From a virus, in the IMG/VR virus record IMGVR_UViG_3300024258_000045, positions 1 through 40,665 of that record: a DNA stretch of 40,665 nt; one strand, given 5' to 3'. The position numbers and the translations under genes are program-made. The notes below the pieces were generated by a model. The model ran no database searches, was not told where the DNA came from, and saw only the letters and a list, made by a program, of their open reading frames with translations. Below are positions 3,365 through 38,784 of this stretch, piece after piece; the first letter of the stretch is position 1, and the number at the start of each line of letters is the position of its first letter.

Positions 3365-3375
3365 TTTATTTCTCC

Positions 3376-4140: not shown

Positions 4141-4151
4141 TTTATTTCTCC

Positions 4152-5105: not shown

Positions 5106-5120
5106 TTTATTTCTCCTTTG

Positions 5121-5216
5121 TTAAATTGTTCCGTAAACAATACTAACAACAATTATTACCGTGATTGCTATTAATCCAAAAACAAATACTATATTATCAT
5201 CAAGTTCAATCTTCAT
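5121..5216 (-). CDS. 31-aa single-span membrane peptide
   Basis: Gene between two methyltransferases with the common AAGGAAAAATAAAATG leader. The product begins MKIELDDNIVFVFGLIAI and is almost entirely a hydrophobic span after a short acidic N-terminus, so it should insert in the inner membrane. Role unknown. It belongs to a set of 31-50-residue membrane peptides in this window. Confidence 0.6.
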   Translation of the reverse strand: MKIELDDNIVFVFGLIAITVIIVVSIVYGTI

Positions 5217-5227
5217 TTTATTTTTCC

Positions 5228-6160
5228 TTAAAATAATCTTTCTTGTTTAGTATGTTTTTCAATTCTTTCTTCTGCAATTTTAAAATAGTTTTCATCTAAT
5301 TCAATACCTATAAAATCACGATTTGTATTCATACAAGCAACTCCTGTACTTCCACTACCCATTGTTAAATCAACTACTAAATCGTTTTCATTACTAAATG
5401 TCTTAATCAAATCTTCAAGCAACAATACAGGCTTTTGCGTTGGATGGTAACCGTCATAATCCTTTTTGTATTTTAGTATATTGCTTTTGTATTTGTTGCC
5501 TTCCCATAAGTTAAATGTACTTGTATGTCTTTCATTTATCTTTTCAAGCTCACTGTAATTTAAAAATCCATCCATATTATTAATTCGGTATTCTGTAATT
5601 AAAGCTAAGTATGTTTCTTTTTTGCAAAGTTCAAATTGTGAGCTTTTTATTCTAAAAACGTGGTCAGCTCTTTGTCCTATTGCCTCAATTACATTTTTCT
5701 TTTTAAGTCCAATAAAAGAAAGCACGTTACCAAAATACGTTCTAAGTGGGTGCAAGTTTTCAACATCATACTTTTTGCTAAAAACTAAAACATCTTCAAT
5801 ATAACTTACAGGTGCTTTATTTGACACTAAACAATTTGCAAAGTGCATTTTATCCCAGTACATATTATAGCTATGAGGTAAGTTAGGAATAGCTTTTGAT
5901 ATTAATTCAGTTGTAAAAGGTTGGTTAGCTGTTAAAATCATCTTGCCATTTTTTCTTAATATCCTATTGGCTATCTGCATGACTTGATCGGTATCAATAG
6001 TAATATCCCACTCAGAAACATTATATTTTTTTTCTTTTGCTACCCTGCTATTACCCAACCCTTTAACCGTTCCATAAGGCAAGTCCGTAAGCACCAAATC
6101 TACACTTCCATCTTTTATATGCTTGTGTTGTTCTAAACAGTCACCTTTATAGAGTTTCAT
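5228..6160 (-). CDS. Beta-class DNA methyltransferase (DLPY type)
   Basis: 310-residue DNA methyltransferase with LTDLPYG (motif IV) and LTMGSGSTG (motif I). I start it at the ATG preceded by AAGGAAAAATAAA, giving MKLYKGDCLEQHKH exactly as in the 4152-5105 copy. A longer reading to 6193 adds 11 residues without a ribosome site. The centre (about residues 130-215) differs from the other copy, while the end (HPTQKPVLLLEDLIKTF onward) is nearly identical. Probably a paralogue with a changed sequence specificity. Confidence 0.9.
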   Translation of the reverse strand: MKLYKGDCLEQHKHIKDGSVDLVLTDLPYGTVKGLGNSRVAKEKKYNVSEWDITIDTDQVMQIANRILRKNGKMILTANQPFTTELISKAIPNLPHSYNMYWDKMHFANCLVSNKAPVSYIEDVLVFSKKYDVENLHPLRTYFGNVLSFIGLKKKNVIEAIGQRADHVFRIKSSQFELCKKETYLALITEYRINNMDGFLNYSELEKINERHTSTFNLWEGNKYKSNILKYKKDYDGYHPTQKPVLLLEDLIKTFSNENDLVVDLTMGSGSTGVACMNTNRDFIGIELDENYFKIAEERIEKHTKQERLF

Positions 6161-6161
6161 T

Positions 6162-6347
6162 TTATTTTTCCTTAAATGTTTTAAGTTTTCCATTTTGAGC
6201 TGAATACCATTTGTTCATATACCTAAATTCAAATCCTTTATCTCTCATACAAATAGCAATTTCTTCACCATGTTTAGTTTTTAAAACAACTCCGTTATAA
6301 ATCTCTTGCAGGATTATTGTGCCTTTTTTGTCTGTTGTTACTTTCAT
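6162..6347 (-). CDS. Hypothetical protein, 61 aa
   Basis: Small basic protein starting MKVTTDKKGTIILQEIYNG, beta-rich by eye. The start chosen has GGAGAAATAAAATG. A longer frame begins at 6386 without a ribosome site. The start overlaps the stop of the zinc-type 42-residue gene by ATGA. Function unknown. Confidence 0.65.
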   Translation of the reverse strand: MKVTTDKKGTIILQEIYNGVVLKTKHGEEIAICMRDKGFEFRYMNKWYSAQNGKLKTFKEK

Positions 6348-7590: not shown

Positions 7591-8025
7591 TTAACTGTTT
7601 TCATTTAATACTTCCTTGACTTCCATGAAGAAATCATTGTCATCGTTTTTAACTAACCACACATTCTCAAATAAATAGAGATAGTCCCCCCATGACTTAT
7701 CAAAATAATCTAACATTGGTTCCAAGTTAGAAAATTCATTTATTTCTAAATCATCACCTCTGTCTCTATGATATGCCATTGTAACATCTTTCAATTCAAT
7801 TTCATTTCCTCTTATTGGGAATGTTTTAAAATTATTTTGTGTTTCAATGTCGTCTCGTAAGTATGATAATGATCCGAGTTTAAGTAACTTATCTACTTTA
7901 TTTTCATCAGTAAAACTATCTACTAATGTTTGTCCAACCCCTTCTGGATACCCGTCGAAATGACAATATACTGCCTTGAATGTTTCGTCTGGTTGTTTCT
8001 TTGCTATATATGACCGAGTGCTCAT
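7591..8025 (-). CDS. Phage protein of the MSTRSYI family, 144 aa
   Basis: Begins MSTRSYIAKKQPDETFKAVY followed by CHFDGYPEGVGQTL. This N-terminal signature marks a family I recall from phages and their hosts, with no established function. It is the first gene after the promoter at 8050-8078, has a GAGGAAT ribosome site, and is preceded by a 5-codon ATGAGGAAT mini-ORF at 8039-8022. Confidence 0.75.
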   Translation of the reverse strand: MSTRSYIAKKQPDETFKAVYCHFDGYPEGVGQTLVDSFTDENKVDKLLKLGSLSYLRDDIETQNNFKTFPIRGNEIELKDVTMAYHRDRGDDLEINEFSNLEPMLDYFDKSWGDYLYLFENVWLVKNDDNDFFMEVKEVLNENS

Positions 8026-8049
8026 TTTTTATTCCTCATTTGTTGCCTT

Positions 8050-8078
8050 AATATACTACGAAAAATCGTAAAAGTCAA
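8050..8078 (-). promoter_or_regulatory. Sigma70-like promoter P1
   Basis: TTGACT, 17 bp, TATATT reading leftward. It lies between the end of the 8092-8352 gene and the 8025 start, and drives the 8.0-0 kb run including the methyltransferases. An ATG follows 10 nt after the -10 box. Confidence 0.8.
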
Positions 8079-8091
8079 GCTTTATTTTTAA

Positions 8092-8352
8092 TTAAATTCT
8101 ATTGTGATTATTACAACATTCAACATCACAATAATTATATAGTTGTATTTTACTTTTACCCTTTAAGTCCGACCTATCTATTTTAATATCAGACTTTCTA
8201 TATATTGGCATTTCTTCAAATGATCCAAGAGGTGGAACTACGTGGTATACTAATGGATTAGTTGCCATCTTTCCACAATTATGACATTTTCGTTTTATTG
8301 GTGATTTTATTTTCTTCTTCAAGTGATTGGACCTCCAGTATAAATTTCCCAT
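8092..8352 (-). CDS. Small zinc-binding-type protein, 86 aa
   Basis: Basic protein with a CHNCGK pair near the N-terminus and a CDVECC cluster near the C-terminus, so a zinc site is likely. Function unknown. The ATG at 8352 has only a weak ribosome site. A TTG at 8322 sits 8 nt after a perfect GGAGGT and could be the true start (76 aa). In that case the overlapping frame upstream (KNIKKAKPLIDSGKWEIYTG) would be the tail of a gene cut by the endonuclease next door. Confidence 0.65.
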   Translation of the reverse strand: MGNLYWRSNHLKKKIKSPIKRKCHNCGKMATNPLVYHVVPPLGSFEEMPIYRKSDIKIDRSDLKGKSKIQLYNYCDVECCNNHNRI

Positions 8353-8382: not shown

Positions 8383-9318
8383 TTAATATTTTTCAAACGT
8401 CAAATCTCTTTCTCTAATTCTATAAAAATCACAATTTAATACTTCTTTTATTTCATTCATACGCTCAATATCTTTTTTCTTTAACTTGCCATTAAAATAA
8501 TGGTTATCTTCATCCCATTCTATCACTATATTATATATCGATTCATAATAATCCACAAAATATCCAGCTACCTTTTTCTCTCCGCCATTCATTGCATGTT
8601 GTCCATTCCATCCATTATATTTATTTAACCAATCAAAGTACTCGCAAGCAACTTTATTAAAACCAATAATGCTTCCGGTTAATCCAATTCTTTCAATAAC
8701 AGCTTCTCGTTTATTTAACCTATTTAATTTACCTTCGTCAGTTTGATAAAATTTAAGTAATGATTTTCTTATTTTATCTTTAACATCTTTTCTACAAGAT
8801 GGATTTTTATATCCTGCAAATCTTCCTTTATTGGCATTGCTAATTTTTTCACAGGTTTCTTCTGTTACTTCTCTATTAGAATTTCCATCAGCAGTTAATT
8901 GTGAATATTCACTACAAACAACCGGCGCGTTTGGAAATTTATTTTTATATTCTTGAAATGTTATATTGTGAGTATCTAAATGTCTAAAATGTATTTGTCT
9001 TAGTTTTTTCCCACATATTTGACATTTCATATAATCAATATTTTCAATACCTGATAGAAGTTTCCATTTTCTTTTGTCTAAATTTCTATTATCTATACCA
9101 CGACACTTAATAGAACAATAATATTTATATCCAGTTCCTATATTTTTAAATTGAGTTTTATTACTACATTCGTCTCTACTACATAATATTTCATTATCAT
9201 TTTCTGCCATGAAATTTTGATAATAAGTCTCGTGAGATATATTAGGGTGATTTTTTGATAGATGTCGTGATAACCACATCATTGTTTTAAAACTTTTATT
9301 ACAAATTTGACATTTCAT
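8383..9318 (-). CDS. Zinc-finger, Vsr-like homing endonuclease candidate
   Basis: 311-residue protein. It opens with a C2H2-type finger (CQICNKSFKTMMW, then H-x4-H), has a CSRDEC...CSIKC cluster and a second CQICGK...HLDTH finger near residue 130. The C-terminus (VDYYESIYNIVIEWDEDNHY, then a helix and FYRIRERD) has the look of a Vsr/PD-(D/E)XK-type endonuclease core. Zinc fingers plus a small nuclease is typical of phage free-standing homing endonucleases. I start at the ATG after AAGGAGAAATAAA. The frame extends upstream to 9447, which may be a separate gene remnant. Confidence 0.75.
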   Translation of the reverse strand: MKCQICNKSFKTMMWLSRHLSKNHPNISHETYYQNFMAENDNEILCSRDECSNKTQFKNIGTGYKYYCSIKCRGIDNRNLDKRKWKLLSGIENIDYMKCQICGKKLRQIHFRHLDTHNITFQEYKNKFPNAPVVCSEYSQLTADGNSNREVTEETCEKISNANKGRFAGYKNPSCRKDVKDKIRKSLLKFYQTDEGKLNRLNKREAVIERIGLTGSIIGFNKVACEYFDWLNKYNGWNGQHAMNGGEKKVAGYFVDYYESIYNIVIEWDEDNHYFNGKLKKKDIERMNEIKEVLNCDFYRIRERDLTFEKY

Positions 9319-9351
9319 TTTATTTCTCCTTAGTAGATTATTAATGTTATA

Positions 9352-9413
9352 GAACAAGTAATCCTTACTTACTAAGGTTTCGGGAAACGGTAGCAACTCC
9401 GCTGTCCTTGTCC
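9352..9413 (-). ncRNA. Possible structured RNA leader before the endonuclease
   Basis: This 62-nt block is noticeably richer in G and C than its surroundings. The ends pair (GGACAAG with CUUGUUC, 7 positions with one G-U). Inside are CGG/CCG, GUUU/AAAC and CCUUA/UAAGG hairpins, and the last can be replaced by AAGUAA/UUACUU. It ends 34 nt before the endonuclease start. It could be a riboregulator of unknown class, or simply coding sequence of a split upstream gene. Confidence 0.3.
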
Positions 9414-9428
9414 TATAATAAATATCAT

Positions 9429-10067
9429 TTAATTTAAAATTGTCCATTTTTTGTCATTACCTAAATCATTCATAACCTTTTTATATTTTAAATTTTTAAT
9501 TTCTCCTGTTATATTATTTTTTACTTTTACTTTATCATTTCTTTCGTACATTTTATCATTTTTAAACGGAACTATTTTTTTCTCATAATCAAATATTGTT
9601 TTTCCGTTAAGATGTGAAATTTCATGTTGTACAGCGATTGCTTCAAGTAACCGTAAATCTTTATCATCTGCATTTTCTTTTTCCCAAATTCCTTTACCAC
9701 TGTTTGTTGAAACTCCACTAAAATACCAATTACTTTCTTCTTGTTCTGTATGTACTATAATATTCTTATATCGTTTGGTGTGTACACCTTTCTTTGGATA
9801 TGAGAGACATCCCTCATAAAAATCTATTTCGTCCCATTTTTCAATTACTGTTGGGTTGATTAGTATAAGTGGTTCTCTAACATTTACTACTGCTACTTGA
9901 GCGTCTATATTGCACTGTGGGGCTGCCAATCCGATTCCCGATTTATTTTTACTTAAAATCTGGAATAATTCTGTTGCTATTTTTAACCCATCTTCAACTG
10001 AAACTTTTTTGAGTTTCTTATTTATAACCGGATTATGTTCTTTGTTGCAATTAATTATTTTTCGCAT
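9429..10067 (-). CDS. def: Peptide deformylase
   Basis: 212-residue deformylase that removes the N-formyl group from new proteins in the cytoplasm. All three family motifs are present: GIGLAAPQ, EGCLSYP (metal-binding Cys) and QHEISHLNG (metal-binding His residues and catalytic Glu; the usual Asp of HExDH is Ser here). A C-terminal extension of about 45 residues (NDKVKVKNNITGEIKNLKYK) is beta-rich and absent from the minimal enzyme. Phage deformylases are known from marine phages. The start follows AGGATGGTTT and overlaps the upstream gene by 17 nt. Confidence 0.93.
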   Translation of the reverse strand: MRKIINCNKEHNPVINKKLKKVSVEDGLKIATELFQILSKNKSGIGLAAPQCNIDAQVAVVNVREPLILINPTVIEKWDEIDFYEGCLSYPKKGVHTKRYKNIIVHTEQEESNWYFSGVSTNSGKGIWEKENADDKDLRLLEAIAVQHEISHLNGKTIFDYEKKIVPFKNDKMYERNDKVKVKNNITGEIKNLKYKKVMNDLGNDKKWTILN

Positions 10068-12317: not shown

Positions 12318-12344
12318 ATGATTTTGTCCTTTTAGTTTCCTTTG

Positions 12345-12373
12345 ATCTTACAACAAAAAAATGAGAAAGTCAA
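12345..12373 (-). promoter_or_regulatory. Sigma70-like promoter P2
   Basis: TTGACT, 17 bp, TAAGAT followed by CAAAGG. It sits in the gap between the 12384 stop and the 12317 start and shares TTCTCAT in the spacer with P6 and P7. Confidence 0.85.
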
Positions 12374-12383
12374 GTGTTATTTT

Positions 12384-15344: not shown

Positions 15345-16976
15345 TTACATCATGCCTGGCATTCCACCCATTCCGCCTGGTGGCATCATAGGTGATGTGT
15401 CGTCACTTGGAATTTCCGTAATAACGGCCTCCGTTGTGAGTAACATACCAGCGATTGAACTTGCGTTCTCTACTGCTACACGTGTAACCTTAGCTGGATC
15501 AATAATGCCAGCCTTGAACATATCTACATATTCTCCACTACGAGCATCAAACCCAGTTCCATTTTTACTATTAAGAACTTCACGTGCTACGACGGAAGAT
15601 TCTTCACCAGCATTTTCACAGATTTGACGAAGTGGTGCTTGAAGTGCTTTTCTCATGATATTCACTCCAACCATTTGTTCATCATCTACTGATACATCGT
15701 CAAGAGCTGAAATAGCACGAAGTAGAGTAACACCACCACCAGCGACGATACCTTCTTCAACTGCTGCTCGGGTTGCGTGTAACGCATCTTCCACACGAGC
15801 TTTCTTCTCTTTCATTTCAACTTCAGTTGGTGCTCCAACATTTAGTACTGCAACTCCACCACTTAGTTTAGCAAGTCGCTCTTGTAACTTCTCAATATCA
15901 TAATCGGAAGTGGATTTTTCAATCTGAACTTTGATTTCATTAATACGAGATTTAATTGTATCTACATCACCACTACCACCAACGACGGTTGTATTGTCTT
16001 TGTCGGATACAACACGTGAACAGGTTCCCATAAAATCAAGAGTTGTGTTCTCTAATTTATGACCAGCTTCTTCAGAAATTACGGTTGCTCCGGTGAGTGT
16101 CGCAATATCTTCTAACATTGATTTACGTCTGTCTCCAAATCCTGGTGCCTTCACTGCAAGAACTTTGAATGTTCCACGGAGTTTATTCACTACGAGTGCC
16201 GCGAGTGCTTCACCATCTACATCTTCAGCTACTATGACGATTGGTTTTCCTGTCTGAACTACTTTCTCCAAAATAGGTAGAACGTCTTTCACATTGGAAA
16301 TCTTCTTGTCATGTAATAAGATATATGGATCTTCAAGAACTGCTTCCATATTATCAGAATCGGTTACGAAGTATGGTGAAAGATAACCACGATCAAATTG
16401 CATTCCTTCTACGAAATCCAAATATGTTTCAGCTGTCTTACTTTCTTCTACAGTAATAACACCGTCTTTACCAACTTTTTCCATTGCCTCAGCAATCTTT
16501 CCACCAATCTCACTATCATCATTTGCTGAGATTGTAGCTACTTGAGCAATTTGATTTGAATCTGGAAGGTCTTTAGCTGCGTTACGGATGGACTCTACAA
16601 CTTTACTTGATGCAAAATCAATCCCACGTTTAATGGACATTGGATTTGCACCCGCTGTAACATTCTTCACTCCTTCGTTTATGATGGCCTGTGCGAGAAC
16701 CGTGGCGGTAGTTGTACCATCACCAGCTATATCAGATGTTCTTGACGCAACTTCTTTCAATAACTCTGCCCCTACACTTTCAAACTTATCTTCAAGTTCA
16801 ATTTCCTTTGCTACTGTAACCCCATCTTTGGTTATGAGCGGAGAACCGAACTTCTTTTCAATAACTACATTCCTACCCTTTGGACCTAATGTAACCTTAA
16901 CCGCGTTTGCAAGTTGGTCTACACCAGACATCAAAGCTGAGTGGGATTGAGCATTGTATTTTATTTCTTTAGCCAT
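15345..16976 (-). CDS. groEL: Chaperonin GroEL
   Basis: 543-residue, full-length group I chaperonin, an ATP-driven folding chamber of the cytoplasm. Visible landmarks are [10 protein letters not shown] near the start, the ATP-site [19 protein letters not shown] in the apical domain, [19 protein letters not shown], and the flexible [10 protein letters not shown] tail. It is bacterial in length and features rather than a reduced phage chaperonin. It lies 9 nt downstream of groES with an AGGAGAATGAA ribosome site. Carriage of both subunits suggests that phage proteins, perhaps the capsid, need extra folding capacity. Confidence 0.98.
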
Positions 16977-17412: not shown

Positions 17413-17886
17413 TTATGAAATTTTTACTATATTAACCATCGGAATTTCTGGTTCTATTTTGGGAAGTTCTATAGATAATATACCATCTTCAAATTTAGCT
17501 GATATATTTTCTCCATCAAGTAATTCACCTAATTCAAATGAACGTTTGAATGAAGATTGCTTCAACTCTCTACGAAGTACTTTAGCACCGTCAACGTCAA
17601 ATGTATTATGTTTATTACCTGAAATAGTTAAGATACCATCTTCAACTTGAATGTTCAAATCCTTCTTACGAAGTCCTGGAATTTCTGCGATGATGCCAAC
17701 TTTATCATCCCATTCATAAACATTTATTTTTGGATACGATGAACCTTTATACGGATTCACCCCAACCGTCTTTGCTATGTCTGGAAATTGTGTGTTTACC
17801 ACTTGGTCAAATAATGCGTCAAATGGTGTTAAGAATGTATCTCTATCGAAAAAAGGGATACCTGTGTGAAGTGCAACTTTAGTCAT
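17413..17886 (-). CDS. Small heat-shock protein, Hsp20 family
   Basis: 157-residue alpha-crystallin-type holdase that keeps unfolding proteins soluble. The crystallin domain spans about residues 45-145: YEWDDKVGIIAEIPGLRKKD, LTISGNK, FKRSFELGELLDGE, FEDGILSIELPK. Start chosen at the ATG after AGGAGAAATAAC; a frame extending to 17916 has no ribosome site. It sits immediately upstream of groES-groEL, so the chaperones form a cluster. Confidence 0.93.
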   Translation of the reverse strand: MTKVALHTGIPFFDRDTFLTPFDALFDQVVNTQFPDIAKTVGVNPYKGSSYPKINVYEWDDKVGIIAEIPGLRKKDLNIQVEDGILTISGNKHNTFDVDGAKVLRRELKQSSFKRSFELGELLDGENISAKFEDGILSIELPKIEPEIPMVNIVKIS

Positions 17887-18017
17887 GTTATTTCTCCTGT
17901 TAGTTACGTTAGTCAACTATGAACATCAATCTCTTTTGAGCCTTGACATTCGGTTATGTTATTGTCCTCTATTGAGCGACAAATTTTTATACTCATCTAT
18001 ATATATCACGTAATTTT

Positions 18018-27382: not shown

Positions 27383-27430
27383 TTGAATGACTCCTTTTAA
27401 GTTAGTTACATTATCTCTCATTGTTACTTG

Positions 27431-27459
27431 ATCTTACGAATAATATTTGATAAAGTCAA
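27431..27459 (-). promoter_or_regulatory. Sigma70-like promoter P5
   Basis: TTGACT, 17 bp, TAAGAT followed by CAAGTAACAATGAGAGATAA. Drives the MoxR-type gene independently of the VWA operon upstream. Confidence 0.87.
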
Positions 27460-27488
27460 GGCTTTTTTTAAGTTTTTTTCACTTTTTT

Positions 27489-27674
27489 TCATTTTGATTT
27501 AGTCCAATGGAATTTACCATTATCAGTTTGATAGGTTTCCCAACCACATTTTTTCCATATACATTTCCAACTATCTTCTGATTCAGTTCTTCTTCTATCT
27601 GTTGGCTTCATCTTATATCCACACATACAATCTGGTGAATGTTTATACCACTTGGATAAAATCCACTTAATCAT
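27489..27674 (-). CDS. Small zinc-ribbon-like protein, 61 aa
   Basis: Basic, Trp-rich protein starting MIKWILSKWYKHSPDCMCGY and containing WKCIWKKCGW. The four cysteines (CMC and CxxxxC) suggest a zinc site. The start overlaps the stop of the 34-residue membrane peptide (TAATG). It ends the VWA transcription unit. Function unknown. Confidence 0.6.
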   Translation of the reverse strand: MIKWILSKWYKHSPDCMCGYKMKPTDRRRTESEDSWKCIWKKCGWETYQTDNGKFHWTKSK

Positions 27675-27778: not shown

Positions 27779-30012
27779 TAGTTCTTCTCCAAGAATTTTT
27801 TGTTCATAGTTCTTGATACGGCTGTTACAGAAGTTACATCAACAAACTGAGAATCTTTACCATACATTCTTTTGAAATCTCCCATATATCTATTTCCATC
27901 ATAACTATCTCCAATGTAATATGAAAGAACTTTTATTCCACGTTCTCTAATTTTCTTTACCATCAATTTAGTATGGTTGATTGCGGTATCATGATAATAA
28001 TCAACGACACCATTACTAAACATTGGCATCCCATCGGAAAAGTTTAAGAAATAAGATTCTTTATCAGTTCCACCAGCGACCATTTCATCCATAACAGCTT
28101 CATAACATAATCCTTCTGGAGTAGTTCCAGCTACATTTATGGATTTCCAAAGTGTTTTAACTTTAACTAAACTATCTACACGTGAATCATAAGCGATTAA
28201 TATAATTGGATAATCTTCAGTACTTCTACCATAACTATGCTGAGTAGAACGAAAAGAAACAACCACATCAACACCTTCAATCATATCAATTGCCTTTACC
28301 ATAGAAGTAACTGACTTCATGGTTTTTCTCCATTTATCTCCAGACATACTTCCACTTGCGTCAATGGAAATATGAAGGAAAGCGTCTGGGAAAGAATCAA
28401 TAAATGTTTGACTAAATACACCATCATTTCCAAATCCAAGTTCGGCTATTAATCTTTTATCAATACGACCGGTATTTTTTCTGGTATATTTTGTTTCACG
28501 GGATTCAGTTCTAACTTGAAGTTTTCTACCAAGGATAGTTCCAAGTCTTAAACCTTCTGTAATAGATTCTTCGTTAGTATCACTGTGATAACTTCTACCT
28601 AACATATTGATAGTTCCACTTTCAATAAGTTCTTTGGTTAATTTCTTAACTACAATACATTTGGTTTTTTTACCAAGTTTTTTACCAGTCCACCTATCAG
28701 TTAAATCTACACCAACTTCTTTATAACTCATACCACTATTTTCAACAGCGTCAATGGAAGCTTTATCTTTTTTGGAAACTTTCTTTTTCTGGATATCTCC
28801 ATCCATAAATTTCTTTTGTTTCTTGATTGCGTTTTCAAGTGATTTCTTTTGTGAATCTGAAAGTGTTACTTCACTTTTTTTAGTTTCAATTTCTTCACCA
28901 CTTTTATTAGAAGAATCTTCTTCACCACTTTCATCACTACTTTCAGTAGAAGAACTTTCCCCATCTTCATCCGATTCTTCACCACTATCCATAGGAACAG
29001 ATACAGAATTTCCGGATTTTTCTTCACTAAATTCTACATCACCATTTTCAACGGCTGATAACAAATCTTCAAATTCATCATCAGACATTTCACGGGATTC
29101 ACTTTCACCACTTTCACTATTACCATCAGTAGAACCACTACCATCGGCTTTCTCATAAGAAACTTCACCAGTTTCATCATCAGTTTTTTTAATTCCATCA
29201 AGAATGTTATTTAAAATTACGTGATACATTTCAAGTGCCACATTGAATGAATCTTCACTTGATTTCAATCTTGAAATATTTTTCAAATCAAGTATATTCC
29301 AAATCTCTCTTAATCCATTTAATGAATCTAAACGAGTATTTGAATTAGTAAAATTGATAACTCTAAAAATATATGAATCCCAATTTTCATCGGTCATTTC
29401 ATCAGACAATAAAGCTTTATCAATTACTTTTGCTCTAAAATACTTTTCGTACATTGAATGATAGTAACCTTTATATCCAGGTGAGTTACTGAATATATGA
29501 TAATCAATTCGTCTATCTTCTACAAAGTTTAATAAATTCTTAATATGAATTTTAGAATCCATTTCACTATAACCTTTAGTGAAAGCTCTATCTAAATATT
29601 CTTTTGGTATATTAACTTCAAGTTGTTTTAGGAAGTCAAAATCACTTAATAGTATATGAGAACCTTCGTGAAGTGCTAACCCAACAGTTGAATCAAAAAG
29701 TTTATCATCCAACTTTGACGAAATAGTAACTTTCTTACCATCAGTAAAGGAATCACCTTGTGCTGTAAATGTAACGGGAATATCTTTTCCAGTTACAATA
29801 TTTACGAAGTTTCCAATAGCTCGTCTATATGAAGCGAGAGCTATTAAATCAGTTCCACTTTTCTTTTCTTCATCATGAGTTTCACCCCAATTTTCATCCA
29901 ACCAAAATGAACTAAAATTGTTAGTCTTGTTTAGATTTTTACTGGAATACTTCTCACGAAGTGCCATTGGATTAAATAATTTCATTTTTTTCATTTGGGT
30001 TTTCTCTCTCAT
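27778..30012 (-). CDS. Metallopeptidase-like plus VWA domain protein, 744 aa
   Basis: The N-terminal domain contains ALHEGSHILLSD (HExxH at residue 115) and, ~50 residues on, NFVEDRRIDYHIF with a possible third metal ligand, like the putative metallopeptidase domain of DUF2201-type proteins. Residues ~290-400 are a Ser/Glu/Asp-rich linker. The C-terminal VWA domain has an intact metal site: DASGSMS (~551), TTPEG (~630), FSDG (~660). This is the architecture of CobT/CoxE-like partners of MoxR ATPases, one of which follows. The ATG at 30012 is nearly leaderless from P6; an internal start at 29994 is possible. Confidence 0.88.
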   Translation of the reverse strand: MREKTQMKKMKLFNPMALREKYSSKNLNKTNNFSSFWLDENWGETHDEEKKSGTDLIALASYRRAIGNFVNIVTGKDIPVTFTAQGDSFTDGKKVTISSKLDDKLFDSTVGLALHEGSHILLSDFDFLKQLEVNIPKEYLDRAFTKGYSEMDSKIHIKNLLNFVEDRRIDYHIFSNSPGYKGYYHSMYEKYFRAKVIDKALLSDEMTDENWDSYIFRVINFTNSNTRLDSLNGLREIWNILDLKNISRLKSSEDSFNVALEMYHVILNNILDGIKKTDDETGEVSYEKADGSGSTDGNSESGESESREMSDDEFEDLLSAVENGDVEFSEEKSGNSVSVPMDSGEESDEDGESSSTESSDESGEEDSSNKSGEEIETKKSEVTLSDSQKKSLENAIKKQKKFMDGDIQKKKVSKKDKASIDAVENSGMSYKEVGVDLTDRWTGKKLGKKTKCIVVKKLTKELIESGTINMLGRSYHSDTNEESITEGLRLGTILGRKLQVRTESRETKYTRKNTGRIDKRLIAELGFGNDGVFSQTFIDSFPDAFLHISIDASGSMSGDKWRKTMKSVTSMVKAIDMIEGVDVVVSFRSTQHSYGRSTEDYPIILIAYDSRVDSLVKVKTLWKSINVAGTTPEGLCYEAVMDEMVAGGTDKESYFLNFSDGMPMFSNGVVDYYHDTAINHTKLMVKKIRERGIKVLSYYIGDSYDGNRYMGDFKRMYGKDSQFVDVTSVTAVSRTMNKKFLEKN

Positions 30013-30020
30013 TACTCTTG

Positions 30021-30049
30021 ATCTTACGACAAAATAATGAGAAAGTCAA
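30021..30049 (-). promoter_or_regulatory. Sigma70-like promoter P6
   Basis: TTGACT, 17 bp, TAAGAT followed by CAAGAGTAATGAGAGAG. Drives the VWA operon. The ATG begins 8 nt after the -10 box, so the message would be leaderless. Confidence 0.87.
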
Positions 30050-30058
30050 GTACTTTCT

Positions 30059-30514
30059 TCAAATATTTTCAACTTTCTTTTTATATTGTTTATACATTTT
30101 GTTTAATGCTGATTTTTGTTTGGGTGATAATGAACCTCTATTACGAGCTTGGTTGTAAAGTGAATCTATGAATATTTCTTTTTCATATTTGAAATTACTT
30201 GTATATGGTGCTCGTTCTAACATGGTACGAACCATAGTAATCTTATTTAATAATATTGTTTTATTTTCTAAATAGGATGTGTCGTTTATTGTATTGAGCC
30301 ATGTTTTATATGACTTAACTATTTTAGTAATTGATGATTCCATTAATGATGTGATTTTTCTACCAGTATTTATTGCGTGATACATACTACCAATGAATTC
30401 TCTATATGTAGAATCTTGGTGTAAGTAATTTACATCATCTAAAATGTGTTTTAATTGTTTTATTCTGTGGTTGAATTCGGTTCTATTTTTTTCTATGTAT
30501 TGTTTATTTCTCAT
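30059..30514 (-). CDS. Hypothetical basic protein, 151 aa
   Basis: Lys/Arg/Asn-rich helical protein starting MRNKQYIEKNRTEFNHRIKQ and ending KMYKQYKKKVENI. No recognised domain. It sits alone between P6 and P7, immediately upstream of the VWA operon, so it may belong functionally to that module. The ATG is 8 nt after the P7 -10 box with no ribosome site, indicating leaderless translation. Confidence 0.7.
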   Translation of the reverse strand: MRNKQYIEKNRTEFNHRIKQLKHILDDVNYLHQDSTYREFIGSMYHAINTGRKITSLMESSITKIVKSYKTWLNTINDTSYLENKTILLNKITMVRTMLERAPYTSNFKYEKEIFIDSLYNQARNRGSLSPKQKSALNKMYKQYKKKVENI

Positions 30515-30522
30515 TATAGTTG

Positions 30523-30551
30523 ATCTTATAACTTAATAATGAGAAAGTCAA
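30523..30551 (-). promoter_or_regulatory. Sigma70-like promoter P7
   Basis: TTGACT, 17 bp, TAAGAT followed by CAACTATAATGAGAAATAA. The spacer TTCTCATTATT is shared with P6. Confidence 0.85.
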
Positions 30552-30633
30552 GTCTTTTTTCACTTATCTTGATGATTTTTTTTATTTCTTTATATCTATT
30601 ATAAAAGAGTATTCTTGATAATAGTTACCAAAC

Positions 30634-32411: not shown

Positions 32412-32777
32412 CTATACGGAGAAAGATGTACCACACCCACAAGTTCTATTTGATTGTGGATTGGTAAACTTAAAACCTCCGTTTAATAAATCATCACTAA
32501 AATCTATTTCTGTTCCTATTAAGTATACGAAACTACTGAATGGAACTATCAATTTCATATCGTCGTAATGATATATTTTATCGTTATTTATTATTTTTCT
32601 GTCAAGAGATTTTAATGTATAATTCATACCACTACAACCACCACCCTCAACGGAAAATTCTACATCTGTATATCCAAGTGTAGTTAATCTGCCTATAGCG
32701 GATGGGGTCATAGTGATATCATCCAGATTTATATCTGGAGTTTCATTATCTAATAAATCTCTTGCATCAATGTTCAT
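32412..32777 (-). CDS. A-type iron-sulfur carrier (IscA/ErpA/HesB)
   Basis: 121-residue Fe-S scaffold/carrier. TMTPSAIGRL opens the domain. The three conserved cluster-binding Cys are visible in EGGGCSGMNY and TCGCGTSFSV at the C-terminus. This type donates clusters to apo-enzymes in the cytoplasm. HesB-type genes are known in marine phages, where they may support host Fe-S supply or a phage Fe-S protein. No recognisable Fe-S target lies in the window. Confidence 0.92.
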   Translation of the reverse strand: MNIDARDLLDNETPDINLDDITMTPSAIGRLTTLGYTDVEFSVEGGGCSGMNYTLKSLDRKIINNDKIYHYDDMKLIVPFSSFVYLIGTEIDFSDDLLNGGFKFTNPQSNRTCGCGTSFSV

Positions 32778-34447: not shown

Positions 34448-34485
34448 TAGCCCCAAGTGGAATTGAACCACTATTTCTGCACACT
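34448..34485 (-). tRNA. tRNA 3' fragment (T arm and acceptor strand)
   Basis: A good T arm (AGTGG-TTCAATT-CCACT) and acceptor 3' strand TGGGGCT with discriminator A, but no matching 5' strand (AGCCCCA), D arm or anticodon arm in the 30 nt before it. Probably a tRNA remnant. The upstream 20 nt resemble the ribosome-site region of the following gene. Confidence 0.4.
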
Positions 34486-34504
34486 TTACATTCCCACATA
34501 TTTG

Positions 34505-34581
34505 TCCACCGGGTTGGAGTCGAACCAACGTGTAACCAATTAACCTTTCAACGGTTTATCAGACCGAGGGTATACCGGTGG
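34505..34581 (-). tRNA. Anomalous tRNA, identity uncertain
   Basis: Perfect 7-bp acceptor (CCACCGG/CCGGTGG) and T arm (GTTGG-TTCGACT-CCAAC), but the middle does not fold canonically. Candidates are CGGT-CTGATAA-ACCG (Ile GAU loop) with no D arm, or AACC-GTTGAAA-GGTT (Ser UGA loop) with an odd 11-nt variable region. A D-loop-like TTAATTGGTTA lies 3' of both. The upstream endonuclease gene ends 23 nt inside it. Confidence 0.45.
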
Positions 34582-35296
34582 GATTGCAGTTATCGTAAAA
34601 TTTTCTATTGAGTTCTTTATTATAAAAAAATGGTGTGTATCCATTCTTATCACAGTAATTTATTAAAGTTTCTCGTTTAATATCTATAGTATCGTAATAA
34701 TATTTCCATTTTCTCTGCAAGTCATTGTTGGAAATAATAGTTTTACATTCTACAATATAAATTTCACCATTAGTAGTTTTTATTTTAAAATCTGGAATAT
34801 ATCTCCGTTCTCTATTCTCAAATTCAAATGGTAAACTAAAATTACATCTATCAATATCCATCACATTAAATTCATTTTCAAAATAATCTAAACAACTATA
34901 TTCTACTTTAGAATCACACTTTATTAATTTATCTTTATATAAATATTCACATCTAATAGACTTCAATGATGGTGCATGTCCATTTAATATTCGTTTAACC
35001 ATAGCCAATGATTGTGATTTCCTACGACTATCAGGCCAATACTGGCTTCCACATTCTCTTGAACATAGTTTTTGTTGTGTTTGAGTTGGACCGTTATAAT
35101 CAGTGGTAATGAACTTTTTATTACATACCAAACAATTTCTTTCAATCTGTTTATGTTGTGTTAAAGTTTTACTAACTTTCTCATTTATTTCTTTTCGTTT
35201 TGCTTTAGTAGAAAATCCATTAGAACAACTCCTATTACAAAATCTACCAGTTGCAAAACTCCCATTATGTTCTTTATTACAATATTCACATTTCAT
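34559..35296 (-). CDS. PD-(D/E)XK-type endonuclease within the tRNA array
   Basis: 245 residues. Zinc-type N-terminus (CEYCNKEHNGSFATGRFCNR, then CLVCNKKF and CSRECGSQYW), a basic middle, then CDSKVEYSCLDYFE and RRYIPDFKIKTTNG-EIYIVECK, a PD-(D/E)XK active site (Asp, then Glu-x-Lys). This is the layout of phage homing endonucleases. AGGAGAATATAAAATG start. Its last eight codons and stop (TGA at 34561-34559) lie inside the next tRNA, as if the gene had inserted at that tRNA. Confidence 0.78.
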   Translation of the reverse strand: MKCEYCNKEHNGSFATGRFCNRSCSNGFSTKAKRKEINEKVSKTLTQHKQIERNCLVCNKKFITTDYNGPTQTQQKLCSRECGSQYWPDSRRKSQSLAMVKRILNGHAPSLKSIRCEYLYKDKLIKCDSKVEYSCLDYFENEFNVMDIDRCNFSLPFEFENRERRYIPDFKIKTTNGEIYIVECKTIISNNDLQRKWKYYYDTIDIKRETLINYCDKNGYTPFFYNKELNRKFYDNCNPTGIPSV

Positions 35297-35309
35297 TTTA
35301 TATTCTCCT

Positions 35310-35377
35310 ATACTAATAAGTATAATCGAACCTAAAAAAGATGTAGTTTATCATACTAATAACCACTAATAAGTGGT
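35310..35377 (-). repeat. Two hairpins with identical TATT loops
   Basis: Between tRNA-Arg(UCU) and the endonuclease, ACCACT-TATT-AGTGGT (35377-35362) and ATACT-TATT-AGTAT (35323-35310) both form stems with the same tetraloop. The second sits next to the endonuclease ribosome site. They could guide RNA processing between tRNA and mRNA or limit translation. Confidence 0.35.
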
Positions 35378-35386
35378 AATAATTGG

Positions 35387-35459
35387 TACTCTCGGAAGGA
35401 CTCGAACCCTCAATAAATCGGTAGAAACGATTTGTGATATCCTGTTTCACCACGAGAGC
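35387..35459 (-). tRNA. tRNA-Arg (UCU)
   Basis: Acceptor GCTCTCG/CGAGAGT, D arm GTGA/TCAC, anticodon stem AATCG/CGATT with loop TTTCTAC (UCU, reading AGA/AGG), T loop TTCGAGT. CCA appears encoded. AGA is a favoured Arg codon in this AT-rich DNA. Confidence 0.9.
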
Positions 35460-35465
35460 AATTGG

Positions 35466-35548
35466 AGGAGAGATGAGGAATCGAACCCCCAAACTTTCAT
35501 TCACCCTGGGGTTCAAACCCAGTTGCCGACCATTCAGTGGATCTCTCC
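35466..35548 (-). tRNA. tRNA-Ser (UGA)
   Basis: Acceptor GGAGAGA/TCTCTCC, anticodon stem CTGGG/CCCAG with loop TTTGAAC (UGA), a long class II variable arm as expected for Ser, and T loop TTCGATT. The discriminator is U where Ser usually has G. CCA appears encoded. Confidence 0.85.
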
Positions 35549-35556
35549 ATATATTG

Positions 35557-35643
35557 CGGAAGATGTTGGATTCGAACCTCCGTTACCTATTAAGGTAAGC
35601 ATCCTTAGCGGGGATGTACAATCAACCACTCTACCACGCTTCC
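35557..35643 (-). tRNA. tRNA-Ser (GCU), imperfect
   Basis: Anticodon stem CATCC/GGATG with loop CCGCTAA (GCU) and a clear class II variable stem TTACC/GGTAA. Discriminator G suits Ser. The U33 position is C, and the acceptor (GGAAGCG/ATCTTCC) and T stem each have two mismatches. Its first 13 nt encode the end of the cytidylyltransferase gene. Confidence 0.7.
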
Positions 35644-36020
35644 ATTATTTTAGTGGTTGAATAATCACCCACCCTATCAAAAAATTTTAATTCCTTTGTA
35701 AATTCTCTACCAATCACTTGACCGTTTTTCCAATCCGAACCAACTACCATTATATCTGGTAATGTAACTCTAACTAAATTTCGTAATTCGTTAGTTGTAT
35801 TGAACTGTAAAACTTCGTCAATATACTTTATAGAATTTAACATTTCTATTCTATCTTCCAATGTGTGTATTGGTCTACCTTTACCCTTATCTGTTCTAAT
35901 CTTTGCATCAGTATCTATACCAACTATAAGAATATCTCCAAGTGATTTAGCATATTTAAACAACTCTATATGTCCTCGATGTAAAACATCAAAGCAACCA
36001 TTAGTCCAAACTTTAATCAC
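35631..36020 (-). CDS. Cytidylyltransferase-like protein (HxGH type)
   Basis: 129-residue nucleotidyltransferase. WTNGCFDVLHRGHIELFKYA carries the HxGH nucleotide-binding motif. GIDTDAKIRTDKGKGRP, then MVVGSDWKNGQVIG and YSTTKI follow the glycerol-3-phosphate cytidylyltransferase / HldE C-domain pattern (RfaE domain II). It would activate a sugar or alcohol phosphate with CTP or ATP for envelope or nucleotide-sugar synthesis. Overlaps the cupin gene by 8 nt. The final codons (MEAW, stop) lie in the 5' end of tRNA-Ser(GCU). Confidence 0.88.
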   Translation of the reverse strand: MIKVWTNGCFDVLHRGHIELFKYAKSLGDILIVGIDTDAKIRTDKGKGRPIHTLEDRIEMLNSIKYIDEVLQFNTTNELRNLVRVTLPDIMVVGSDWKNGQVIGREFTKELKFFDRVGDYSTTKIMEAW

Positions 36021-36354
36021 CTTTAATTATCCTATAGCTATCATCTTCAAAGTGTTGTGTTGAAAATTCAAATAATTCACTATCTTCTATTGCAAGCATT
36101 TGATGACGTAATCCAATAGAAACGTGAAATGTATCACCAGGTTCCATAATCATTTTTTTAGATTCTTCTAAGTTATCTTCATTTGAATATCTAACTATTA
36201 TCGAACCAGACTGTAAATAAAATACCTCATCTTTTATTTTATGGTAATGAAAGGAACAATGTTTTCCCTTTTTAAAGAATAGAAGTTTCCCACAGTATTC
36301 TTTCTTATTTACTATCCACTTTTCATATCCCCAACTTTTATCATGAATTTCCAT
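36013..36354 (-). CDS. Cupin protein, sugar-phosphate isomerase-like
   Basis: About 113 residues of a single cupin barrel: KSWGYEKWIVNKKEYCGKLL, FKKGKHCSFHYHKIKDEVFY (His-rich metal site), SGSIIV, and MEPGDTFHVSIGLRHQM. This resembles the C-terminal half of type II mannose-6-phosphate isomerases. Coupled to the cytidylyltransferase, it suggests a two-gene sugar-modification unit. Start placed after GGAGTTAGAA (36354). Longer frames to 36366 or 36387 lack a ribosome site. Confidence 0.83.
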   Translation of the reverse strand: MEIHDKSWGYEKWIVNKKEYCGKLLFFKKGKHCSFHYHKIKDEVFYLQSGSIIVRYSNEDNLEESKKMIMEPGDTFHVSIGLRHQMLAIEDSELFEFSTQHFEDDSYRIIKGD

Positions 36355-36423
36355 TTCTAACTCCATTCTATCCGTAATAAATATCATGTTTAGTTATCTA
36401 TTACAGATATAATATAACTATTG

Positions 36424-36498
36424 ACCGGGTAGTTGGAATCGAACCAACACCTGTATAGATTTTAAGTCTATTGCCTCTACCAATTGGGCTACGGGACC
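36424..36498 (-). tRNA. tRNA-Leu (UAA), acceptor stem does not pair
   Basis: D arm GCC/GGC, anticodon stem ATAGA/TCTAT with loop CTTAAAA (UAA), and T arm GTTGG/CCAAC are sound. However, the 5' strand GGTCCCG does not pair with TACCCGG. The variable loop is short, unlike the class II arm usual for Leu. The first 10 nt code for the end of a small protein. Possibly a pseudo-tRNA. Confidence 0.6.
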
Positions 36499-36632
36499 CT
36501 CTTTCTGTCAATCAACCATTGAGTATGAAAAAAGTCAATAGTATCTTCATCTAAATCTTTCCAAGATATATTTTCTTCCTTCATCCGTATTACTACATAC
36601 TCACCAAAGGTCGGTTCATATTTTATACTCAT
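36489..36632 (-). CDS. 47-aa protein fitted between two tRNAs
   Basis: Begins MSIKYEPTFGEYVVIRMKEE, two nucleotides from the tRNA-Lys discriminator base, and ends RKRVP with its TAG inside tRNA-Leu. It has a protein-like acidic composition but no Shine-Dalgarno site, because the tRNA sequence occupies that position. Translation would need processing of the tRNA first. Function unknown. Confidence 0.5.
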   Translation of the reverse strand: MSIKYEPTFGEYVVIRMKEENISWKDLDEDTIDFFHTQWLIDRKRVP

Positions 36633-36633
36633 G

Positions 36634-36705
36634 TGGACCCACCCGAACTCGAATCGGGAACAGATGGTTAAAAGCCATCTGGTTTACCAGTTAACCTATG
36701 GGTCC
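36634..36705 (-). tRNA. tRNA-Lys (UUU)
   Basis: Acceptor GGACCCA/TGGGTCC, D arm GGTTAACTGGTAAACC, anticodon stem GATGG/CCATC with loop CTTTTAA (UUU), T arm CCCGA/TCGGG. All arms pair well; CCA is not encoded. Confidence 0.93.
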
Positions 36706-36710
36706 AATTG

Positions 36711-36782
36711 TACTCCCGGATGGAATCGAGCCATCATTTGTAGTTTAGGAAACTACTGTGTTCTCCTTTACACTACGGGAGT
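36711..36782 (-). tRNA. tRNA-Arg (CCU)
   Basis: Acceptor ACTCCCG/CGGGAGT, D arm GTG/CAC, anticodon stem GTAGT/ACTAC with loop TTCCTAA (CCU, reading AGG), T arm GATGG/CCATC. Well folded. Confidence 0.92.
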
Positions 36783-36791
36783 AAAAAATGA

Positions 36792-36871
36792 TATAAATAG
36801 AGAGCGTCAATCTTTCGTCTGAGGAATTAACTCAAAGTCTTTATAACGGACTTCTACCGTTTCTATTTATA
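36792..36871 (-). ncRNA. Unidentified tRNA-like structured RNA
   Basis: Fills the gap between two tRNA-Arg genes. The ends pair perfectly over 10 bp (TATAAATAGA with TCTATTTATA). Inside are AACGG-TAGAAGT-CCGTT (5-bp stem, 7-nt loop like an anticodon arm, but A at position 33) and TGAG-TTAATTC-CTCA (T-arm-like). There is no D arm. No start codon opens a convincing ORF. It may be a stable RNA like the unexplained RNAs of the T4 tRNA cluster. Confidence 0.5.
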
Positions 36872-36874
36872 CTG

Positions 36875-36946
36875 TACTCTCGGGAGGAATCGAGCCCCCA
36901 ACTTTTGGTTCGTAGCCAAATATGATATCCGTTTCACCACGAGAGT
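36875..36946 (-). tRNA. tRNA-Arg (ACG)
   Basis: Acceptor ACTCTCG/CGAGAGT, D arm GTGA/TCAT, anticodon stem TTTGG/CCAAA with loop CTACGAA (ACG, reading CGU after A34 deamination), T arm GGGGG/CCTCC. Confidence 0.9.
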
Positions 36947-36956
36947 ATATTGTTTG

Positions 36957-37028
36957 AGCTCTCACGAGGAATCGAACCCCGCTCTTCTGGTTACAAACCA
37001 GTTGCTTTACCTGATAAGCTATGAGAGC
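36957..37028 (-). tRNA. tRNA-Thr (UGU)
   Basis: Acceptor GCTCTCA/TGAGAGC, D arm GCTTATCAGGTAAAGC, anticodon loop TTTGTAA (UGU) on stem ACTGG/CCAGA, T arm with TTCGATT. One weak pair at the bottom of the anticodon stem. Confidence 0.9.
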
Positions 37029-37036
37029 ATTTTGTG

Positions 37037-37107
37037 TAGGGAATAATGGAATCGAACCATTCTCTATTGGATGTAAGCCAATCATTCTACCGATGAACTA
37101 ATTCCCC
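37037..37107 (-). tRNA. tRNA-Val (UAC)
   Basis: Acceptor GGGGAAT/ATTCCCT (one G-U), D arm GTTC/GAAT, anticodon stem ATTGG/CCAAT with loop CTTACAT (UAC), T arm AATGG/CCATT. Confidence 0.9.
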
Positions 37108-37112
37108 TGTTG

Positions 37113-37186
37113 AGTACAGGATCGGATTCGAACCGATGAATAATGGATTTGCAATCCACCGCATTAAACCACTCTGCCACCTGTAC
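37113..37186 (-). tRNA. tRNA-Cys (GCA)
   Basis: Acceptor GTACAGG/CCTGTAC, D arm GCA...TGC, anticodon stem GTGGA/TCCAT with loop TTGCAAA (GCA), T arm ATCGG/CCGAT, discriminator U as usual for Cys. Confidence 0.92.
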
Positions 37187-37194
37187 ATATGGTG

Positions 37195-37265
37195 TGGAGC
37201 TATAGGGAATCCAACCCTAATTTCCGCAGTGCAAATGCGGTGTAATCGCTTTATACCATAGCCCC
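37195..37265 (-). tRNA. tRNA-Ala (UGC)
   Basis: Acceptor GGGGCTA/TAGCTCC (one G-U), anticodon stem CCGCA/TGCGG with loop TTTGCAC (UGC), T arm TAGGG/CCCTA. Its first 15 nt encode the last four codons and stop of the HNH protein gene. Unlike the other overlapped tRNAs, it folds well. Confidence 0.88.
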
Positions 37266-37913: not shown

Positions 37914-37985
37914 TAGCCCGACGGAGTACTGACCTCCGGTTCCTGGAGTGAAAGTCCAGTGTCCTATCCATTAGACGACCGGGCC
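37914..37985 (-). tRNA. tRNA-Glu (UUC)
   Basis: Acceptor GGCCCGG/TCGGGCT (two G-U), D arm GTC/GAC, anticodon stem CTGGA/TCCAG with loop CTTTCAC (UUC). The T stem CGGAG/CTCCG is sound but the T loop GTCAGTA lacks the usual TTC. Confidence 0.85.
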
Positions 37986-38158: not shown

Positions 38159-38187
38159 AATATACAAACAATAATTCATAAAGTCAA
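38159..38187 (-). promoter_or_regulatory. Sigma70-like promoter P8
   Basis: TTGACT, 17 bp, TATATT. The -35 and spacer (TTATGAATTATTGTTTG) are identical to P9, so one is a copy of the other. It reinforces transcription of the tRNA array downstream of tRNA-Gln. Confidence 0.85.
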
Positions 38188-38210
38188 GTGTTATTTTAAA
38201 AAACTTTTAG

Positions 38211-38447: not shown

Positions 38448-38476
38448 ATAATACAAACAATAATTCATAAAGTCAA
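38448..38476 (-). promoter_or_regulatory. Sigma70-like promoter P9 of the tRNA array
   Basis: TTGACT, 17 bp, TATTAT. It lies between the 38.5 kb terminator and tRNA-Asn, so the array starts as its own unit. A transcript would begin only a few bases before the mature tRNA 5' end. Confidence 0.88.
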
Positions 38477-38497
38477 GTCTTTTTCTTTCATAAAAAC

Positions 38498-38573: not shown

Positions 38574-38681
38574 CTACGTTCTCCAATAATCGGCATCAAC
38601 CTGATGTTCCGTTGTGCAATTATATGCCCGAGGAATCTCAGTGGTGAGTACCGGTGAAAATCGTTTTGATATGTTATTCAT
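38574..38681 (-). CDS. 35-aa ORF before the terminator
   Basis: Starts MNNISKRFSPVLTTEIPRAY and ends DADYWRT. Protein-like composition. Its ATG overlaps the stop of an open frame upstream (TATGAATAAC) in the usual coupled style, and it ends about 40 nt before the terminator. No family recognised. Confidence 0.4.
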   Translation of the reverse strand: MNNISKRFSPVLTTEIPRAYNCTTEHQVDADYWRT

Positions 38682-38784
38682 ATTTCTCATTACTGTAATA
38701 TATATCATGAAGTTTTGGAAAACGTTCTTTTATTTTTAAAAAATAAACACCATTAAAAAAACGTATATAATCGTTAATACGCGT
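38674..38784 (-). pseudogene. Open frame without start codon, possible remnant
   Basis: 36 codons (including FLKIKERFPKLHDIYY) between an in-frame TAG and a stop that overlaps the next ATG. There is no ATG, GTG or TTG start. The DNA 38701-38742 closely matches 18001-18042 at the end of the small methylase gene, where the same frame reads LKIKRRFEKLRDIYR. Probably a gene fragment or dispersed repeat. Confidence 0.3.
38701..38742 (-). repeat. Dispersed ~42-bp repeat (second copy 18001-18042)
   Basis: Both copies carry a T-rich block, TTTTTAAAAATAAAA, then ACGTTTT and AAAA, ending TGATATAT, with only scattered differences. One lies at the 3' end of the methylase-like gene, the other here before a small ORF. 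The function is not clear. Confidence 0.4.

Follow-up and report, generated by a model that had tools for sequence, protein, structure and literature searches.

tRNA-overlapping genes and empty sites in the phage array

The window, meaning the whole stretch of DNA analysed here, is a phage fragment, the 40.7-kb IMG/VR virus record IMGVR_UViG_3300024258_000045, which carries a cluster of about 17 tRNA genes or tRNA-like sequences at 34.45–38.44 kb. Four minus-strand coding sequences in this array, encoding an endonuclease, a cytidylyltransferase, the product of a 47-amino-acid (aa) open reading frame (ORF) and a zinc-finger/HNH endonuclease (hereafter the HNH gene and protein), end within the 5' part of the next tRNA, as an earlier preliminary description of the window had reported. 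Their stop codons, at 34559 (TGA), 35631 (TAG), 36489 (TAG) and 37251 (TAA), respectively, all fall inside the first 10–23 nucleotides (nt) of tRNAs starting at about 34581, 35643, 36498 and 37265, with overlaps of 23, 13, 10 and 15 nt in the same gene order. The possibility that the coding starts are spurious was rejected for three of the four genes.

The endonuclease comprises an N-terminal Cys module (aa 1–49), a second Cys cluster and a C-terminal PD-(D/E)XK nuclease, and its residues E132, D169, E183 and K185 are invariant across 14 sequences. The predicted structure is of moderate confidence (mean predicted local distance difference test score, pLDDT, 75; predicted template modelling score, pTM, 0.51), with a good nuclease part, and the fold of the C-terminal domain matches that of TnsA (Z 10.4, root-mean-square deviation 3.4 over 111 residues). 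Invariant residues and predicted fold together assign this domain to the PD-(D/E)XK nucleases. The HNH protein matches the PHROG families phrog_8048 (E 2.8e-9) and phrog_22514 (E 2.5e-6) and carries an HNH motif. Neither protein has a match in Pfam, and the site specificity of both nucleases is putative.

A close relative, IMGVR_UViG_3300013115_000236 (L001), shows 80–87% DNA identity to the window in extended blocks that flank the array; it has this array too, but lacks the endonuclease, the HNH gene and the 47-aa ORF. All three sites are empty in L001, where tRNA-Glu adjoins tRNA-Ala, tRNA-Arg(UCU) adjoins tRNA-Ile(GAU) and tRNA-Lys adjoins a class II tRNA-Leu(UAA); Ala, Ile and Leu tRNAs that lack the upstream genes, which the preliminary description had proposed to look for in relatives, are thus found there. 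The three genes were therefore either gained by the window or lost from L001. Both the endonuclease and the HNH gene lie between tRNA genes, outside any intron or intein, and an Rfam scan of the window at gathering scores returned tRNA families only and no intron match.

At the Glu–Ala site, the two genomes agree in the spacer (AAATAT) and in the first letters of the tRNA (GGGGCT), so the C-terminal residues and stop codon of the HNH gene are read from the old spacer and tRNA. At the Arg–Ile site, the endonuclease is followed by a complete odd tRNA, a decayed leader copy and the 3' half of the resident tRNA-Ile with its own leader, so that tRNA and flank are present twice in tandem. The resident remnant retains the variable-loop edge, the T arm and the 3' acceptor strand, lacks its 5' half, and precedes the leader of an RNase H-like gene. 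We read this site as the trace of an import, together with the endonuclease, of a tRNA and its flank, which were fused to the resident tRNA close to its T arm; the alternative is a local tandem duplication. Separately, the leader motif TATAGGAGAAT was considered as a general shared leader and rejected, with just two exact copies in the window.

The cytidylyltransferase has a different history. In L001 it also ends inside tRNA-Ser(GCU), which is fully paired there (56.2 bits), and a homologue in L004 with no tRNA downstream is of equal length (130 versus 129 and 132 aa). Because L001 shares the overlap and the tRNA-free homologue has the same length, the overlap is best taken as old, ordinary gene packing that took nothing from the protein. 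The suggestion that the overlapping genes are mobile therefore suits two of the four: the endonuclease and the HNH gene, both nucleases with sites that are empty in L001. The cytidylyltransferase is resident and non-mobile, and the 47-aa ORF is undecided; absent from L001, it has coding-like codon use (0.134, a value reached by 1.2% of shuffles).

Table 1. Genes and tRNA features of the array discussed in the text (window positions)
Feature	Position	Strand	Remarks
tRNA-Glu(UUC)	37914..37985	-	45.6 bits; not called by ARAGORN; borders HNH insertion on the left
Zinc-finger/HNH endonuclease, 191 aa	37251..37826	-	Final residues YGAMV and TAA from old spacer and tRNA-Ala
tRNA-Ala(UGC)	37194..37265	-	56.1 bits, intact; directly 3' of HNH gene; adjoins tRNA-Glu in L001
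tRNA-Lys(UUU)	36633..36705	-	tRNA-Leu directly next in L001
47-aa ORF	36489..36632	-	Between tRNA-Lys and tRNA-Leu; TAG is nt 8–10 of the Leu tRNA
tRNA-Leu(UAA)-like	36424..36498	-	Acceptor stem unpaired, variable region short; probably a pseudogene
Cytidylyltransferase, PF01467	35631..36020	-	GTG start; last residues and TAG inside tRNA-Ser(GCU)
tRNA-Ser(GCU)	35556..35643	-	Acceptor and T stems mismatched; probably decayed
tRNA-Arg(UCU)	35384..35459	-	Left neighbour of endonuclease insertion; adjoins tRNA-Ile in L001
Endonuclease, 245 aa	34559..35296	-	Last codons and TGA inside tRNA 34505–34581
Odd tRNA-like gene after endonuclease	34505..34581	-	7-bp acceptor stem, 5-bp T stem, reduced D region
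Decayed leader copy	34483..34506	-	Matches leader 3' of tRNA-Ile in L001 at 19/24 positions
tRNA-Ile(GAU), remnant of resident	34450..34482 (ends approximate)	-	From alignment with L001 7909–8000

A family of Cys-module endonucleases

The N-terminal Cys module, about 45 residues long and with C3, C6, H10, G12, G17, C20 and C24 near-invariant, is encoded at 51 viral loci, and a tRNA lies within 1.5 kb at 51 of 51. All 44 records searched carry 4–44 tRNAs each, and about 20 module genes end inside the next tRNA, with the stop codon mostly at nt 8–10. The domains behind the module vary, including HNH, PDDEXK_5, DUF559/Vsr-like and NUMOD3 domains, and PD-(D/E)XK in the window. Across bacterial and archaeal genomes of 84,980 species the module occurred in three hits, two of them beside tRNAs and plausibly on phage contigs. 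The module itself has no match in Pfam, its similarity to FCS fingers in the PDB is insignificant (E 0.5), and the literature searched, which excluded most subscription journals, contained no description of the module or of tRNA fidelity in endonucleases other than GIY-YIG. The family is thus probably undescribed and appears to live almost exclusively in phage tRNA clusters.

Two observations stand apart from these counts. A Lak phage homologue (27%) was rejected as an overlap case: read with TAG as Q, it ends before the tRNA. In L002, a phage contig with three module endonucleases, the tRNA array includes a transfer-messenger RNA gene at 7677–8000 (108 bits).

Condition of the overlapping tRNAs

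Scoring against covariance models (CMs) bore out the faults first described in the Leu, Ser(GCU) and 34505–34581 tRNAs. For tRNA-Leu(UAA), the match to RF00005 is limited to model positions 8–63, so that the acceptor stem is absent, and the variable region is short, whereas the Leu tRNA of L001 is class II. By eye, tRNA-Ser(GCU) has the acceptor mismatches C6.U67 and G7.A66 and two T-stem mismatches, and it falls below the Rfam cut-off. The 34505–34581 tRNA has perfect acceptor and T stems, a D arm of 4 nt where the CM expects 15, and a variable region enlarged by 18 nt; it scores 30.3 bits, just over the Rfam cut-off, and its anticodon is ambiguous, GAU in the CM alignment versus UGA in the minimum-energy fold. 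Taking four paired arms at the Rfam cut-off as the mark of a functional canonical tRNA, all three fall short; tRNA-Ala attains it and folds well, as originally described.

The preliminary description had also tied the overlaps to these faults. That link is contradicted on its own terms by tRNA-Ser(GCU) of L001, which is fully paired despite the same overlap, and most overlapping tRNAs elsewhere reach good scores (31.5–69.9 bits), so the idea that overlap causes the faults was rejected. Since the L001 cytidylyltransferase ends in a fully paired tRNA, overlap is neither a cause nor a sign of them. The related proposal that mobile genes replaced the 5' parts of tRNAs survives at most for tRNA-Ile, of which the 3' half is left with the odd tRNA before it, and possibly for tRNA-Leu; it does not hold for tRNA-Ala, which is intact. 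Conversely, the faulty tRNAs might be functional but unusual molecules adapted to overlap, a notion that the perfect stems and passing score of the 34505–34581 tRNA would suit. Against this, the L001 counterparts are canonical (Ile 63.9, Ser 56.2 and Leu 57.8 bits), overlapping tRNAs elsewhere have mostly good scores, and a search of viral contigs for a second copy of the odd core gave no exact match; we hold this explanation to be quite improbable.

Frequency of genes ending inside a tRNA

We surveyed the arrays of 43 phage regions, in which tRNAs were called by ARAGORN and ORFs of at least 90 aa with a stop codon near the next tRNA were taken from mechanical gene calls. Among ORFs without the module, a control set that includes other endonucleases, 27 of the 104 with a tRNA immediately downstream have their end inside that tRNA, and the annotation of Serratia phage BF shows the same for 4 of 15 comparable coding sequences (CDS). 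TAG, TAA or TGA occupies nt 8–10 in 407 of 769 tRNAs (53%), so frames that enter a tRNA often stop at once. The overlap is real yet ordinary and needs no special explanation.

These counts argue for ordinary gene packing, in which compact genomes and stop codons in the 5' ends of tRNAs suffice and mobility is irrelevant to the overlap, and the cytidylyltransferase, with its ancestral overlap and natural protein length, conforms to it. We regard packing as a probable account of the overlaps. It leaves unexplained, however, the insertion of nucleases at exact sites and the sharing of downstream tRNAs described below. Module ORFs also end inside a tRNA more often than the controls (17/34 versus 27/104, P 0.012), a modest difference that remains when two cases that rest on Rfam calls, made for the module genes but not for the controls, are removed (15/32 versus 27/104, P 0.030). 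Packing is therefore a complement to homing and not an exclusive rival.

Target fidelity and the homing interpretation

Downstream tRNAs were compared between pairs from different phages for all array ORFs of at least 100 aa, many of them nuclease-like, with expectations derived from shuffles. The downstream tRNA species is common to 8 of 18 pairs at ≥50% identity (0.53 expected) and to 16 of 165 pairs at ≥25% identity (4.9 expected). For example, Asn(GUU) follows four such proteins, Cys(GCA) and Glu(UUC) three each, and Arg(ACG) two. Overlap (-) or gap (+) lengths differ within groups, being -45, +34 and -62 for Cys, 0, -1, -9 and -10 for Asn, and -10, -10 and +1 for Glu; for L066 the ARAGORN gap of +1 was used, the value of -23 from a T-arm scan being an overcall. 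A peptide-pattern search for relatives of the window HNH protein found none, and one later turned up among the array ORFs: the L105/L106 protein aligns with it to its last residues (28% identity), and both genes end in tRNA-Ala(UGC), which they enter in different frames. Related proteins thus occupy the same target among the array ORFs and, for the window HNH gene and L105, at Ala, and no same-target relative was found for the window PD-(D/E)XK endonuclease. Overall, the target looks kept and the overlap looks incidental.

This pattern bears on the proposal that the overlaps serve deliberate control, whereby release of the tRNA by RNase P would strip the stop codon and leave a non-stop mRNA, limiting endonuclease expression or tuning tRNA output. 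The geometry does fit, as first described, the stop codon lying 3' of the expected cut in all four genes; low nuclease expression is plausible, and transcripts of T4 segB, which encodes the homing endonuclease SegB, are reportedly processed by RNase E (PMC2988022). Yet homologous endonucleases that share a tRNA differ in overlap length (the Cys, Asn and Glu groups), the two Ala-linked HNH genes enter their tRNA in different frames, many family members have no overlap at all, and T4 segB stops 5 nt before its tRNA. Because the downstream tRNA is kept while overlap length and frame vary, control by RNase P is disfavoured, and we consider it very improbable.

We favour instead, with a probability of about 0.78, the reading that the endonuclease and the HNH gene encode tRNA-targeted, free-standing homing endonucleases that would behave like SegB, belong to other families and have reading frames that run into the target tRNA. 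Both proteins have a nuclease domain, and L001 offers an empty allele at conserved tRNA junctions. On this model, free-standing mobile endonucleases would colonise phage tRNA arrays, two of them in the window, each placed directly before a single tRNA gene (Ala or Ile) that is its presumed homing site, with the Cys module possibly contributing to the choice of target. As the gene would be inserted flush against the tRNA, its frame would continue into the tRNA and end at the first in-frame stop, often U8-A9-G10. During co-infection, the enzyme would cut the array of a phage without the gene, and repair of the break would copy the endonuclease and its flanking tRNA into the cut genome. At the Ile site, repair may have imported a second tRNA and leader, sparing just the 3' half of the resident tRNA.

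Alternatively, L001 may have lost endonucleases that were ancestral residents with a phage function, such as rebuilding or multiplying tRNA genes in the face of defences that cut tRNAs. For SegB, both amplification of tRNA-Tyr and a benefit to phage T6 against Septu are on record (PMC13096335), and the tandem tRNA-Ile and leader in the window resemble such amplification. On the other side, codon usage in the endonuclease and the HNH gene (scores 0.086 and 0.083) is less typical than in resident gene windows (0.107–0.363, 5–95% range), and members of the module family are dispersed among many contigs, with nuclease domains swapped. Ancestral residence is on balance unlikely; a phage function and selfish homing are nevertheless not mutually exclusive and can coexist.

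Several points weigh against homing. L001 is a single close relative, and a gain by the window is likelier than a loss from L001, short of proof. The body of the endonuclease has no full-length homologue in viral_contigs, nor any there without the module, and for the 47-aa ORF no homologue or nuclease signature was found. Cleavage and transfer are predictions from sequence. Upstream tRNAs are shared as well (6/24 pairs versus 0.8 expected at ≥50% identity), part of which may be inherited synteny, and the sharing test is not module-specific and its pairs are non-independent. Since the upstream excess vanishes at ≥25% identity (9/164 versus 5.5) and the downstream excess stays, inherited synteny accounts for part, not all, of the downstream sharing.

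Relation to known systems

SegB reportedly cuts within tRNA genes and drives the inheritance and amplification of tRNA regions (PMC13096335; PMC2988022); it amplifies tRNA-Tyr under defence pressure, segB co-localises with tRNAs across phages, and the reported motif is RAWTSGAAC (PMC13096335). Like the two putative homing endonucleases of the window, this T4 and T6 enzyme is free-standing, and its gene sits in a phage tRNA array directly before a tRNA, which in T4 is tRNA-Arg at a gap of 5 nt. It differs in being a GIY-YIG enzyme, whereas the window genes encode PD-(D/E)XK and HNH nucleases with Cys modules and stop inside the tRNA; neither the endonuclease nor the HNH protein has a GIY-YIG match in Pfam or PHROGs. 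On our own reading, the SegB motif corresponds to the T-arm consensus of tRNAs in reverse complement, and this would presumably account for cuts in many tRNA genes.

Other likenesses are partial. The T5-like phage HdH2 has an HNH gene in its tRNA array that overlaps tRNA-Thr by 1 nt, and HNH genes in phage tRNA clusters, for example in mycobacteriophages, have been noted before, in an account that describes neither a tRNA-tied module family nor stop codons inside tRNAs (PMC6409571). TnsA and PD-(D/E)XK enzymes, including the homing endonuclease I-Bth0305I, resemble the window endonuclease in predicted C-terminal fold and catalytic residues; sequence identity is ~15%, and a common fold alone does not show transposition. 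A PDDEXK_5 domain (PF11645) occurs in the module protein of L057, also beside tRNA genes. This is the domain of enzymes like I-Ssp6803I, which resides in an intron of tRNA-fMet; the window genes differ in being free-standing, with no intron matched by Rfam. NUMOD and FCS-type zinc modules are likewise small, modular, Cys-rich or helical DNA-binding parts, and NUMOD3 follows the module in L021, but the Cys module stands apart from both in its missing Pfam match and insignificant FCS similarity.

SegB-like behaviour is thus already known, and what is new is probably an undescribed family of tRNA-array endonucleases. What drives phages to carry and keep rearranging tRNA arrays is still being worked out, with bacterial defences that cut tRNAs now implicated, and the module family provides a testable agent, in addition to SegB, by which phage tRNAs could be gained, lost or damaged. 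More tentatively, at somewhat less than even odds, it may be a large family whose Cys module steers exchangeable nuclease domains to the 5' edge of individual tRNA genes, with one tRNA species per lineage, held by the shared last codons; if so, phage tRNA arrays would owe much of their shape to this family as well as to SegB. Endonuclease genes that end inside tRNAs can be explained without special regulation, and for annotators a CDS that overlaps the 5' end of a tRNA is often genuine.

Other features of the window

Near the array, an exact 25-bp direct repeat (38165–38189 and 38454–38478; none expected by chance) brackets a Gln-Trp-Asn tRNA block, and a 44-aa ORF (38574–38708, minus strand) is kept in L001 (3774–3908) within an 83% identical block just 5' of the tRNA array. 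Blocks at 27405–27501, 30004–30079, 30480–30594, 12322–12383 and 8047–8094 match several places in L001 and are perhaps dispersed promoters or repeats.

The remaining features are all on the minus strand. A 354-aa zinc-finger gene with a ROS/MUCR match (8383–9447) is possibly a further mobile endonuclease, this one away from the tRNA array. At 2684–6193 lie four tandem N6/N4 DNA methyltransferase genes, two of them with near-identical starts that suggest duplication. Genes for a peptide deformylase (9429–10067), a GroEL-like chaperonin (15345–16976), Hsp20 (17413–17916) and an IscA-like Fe-S protein (32412–32777) make up an unusual set for one fragment.

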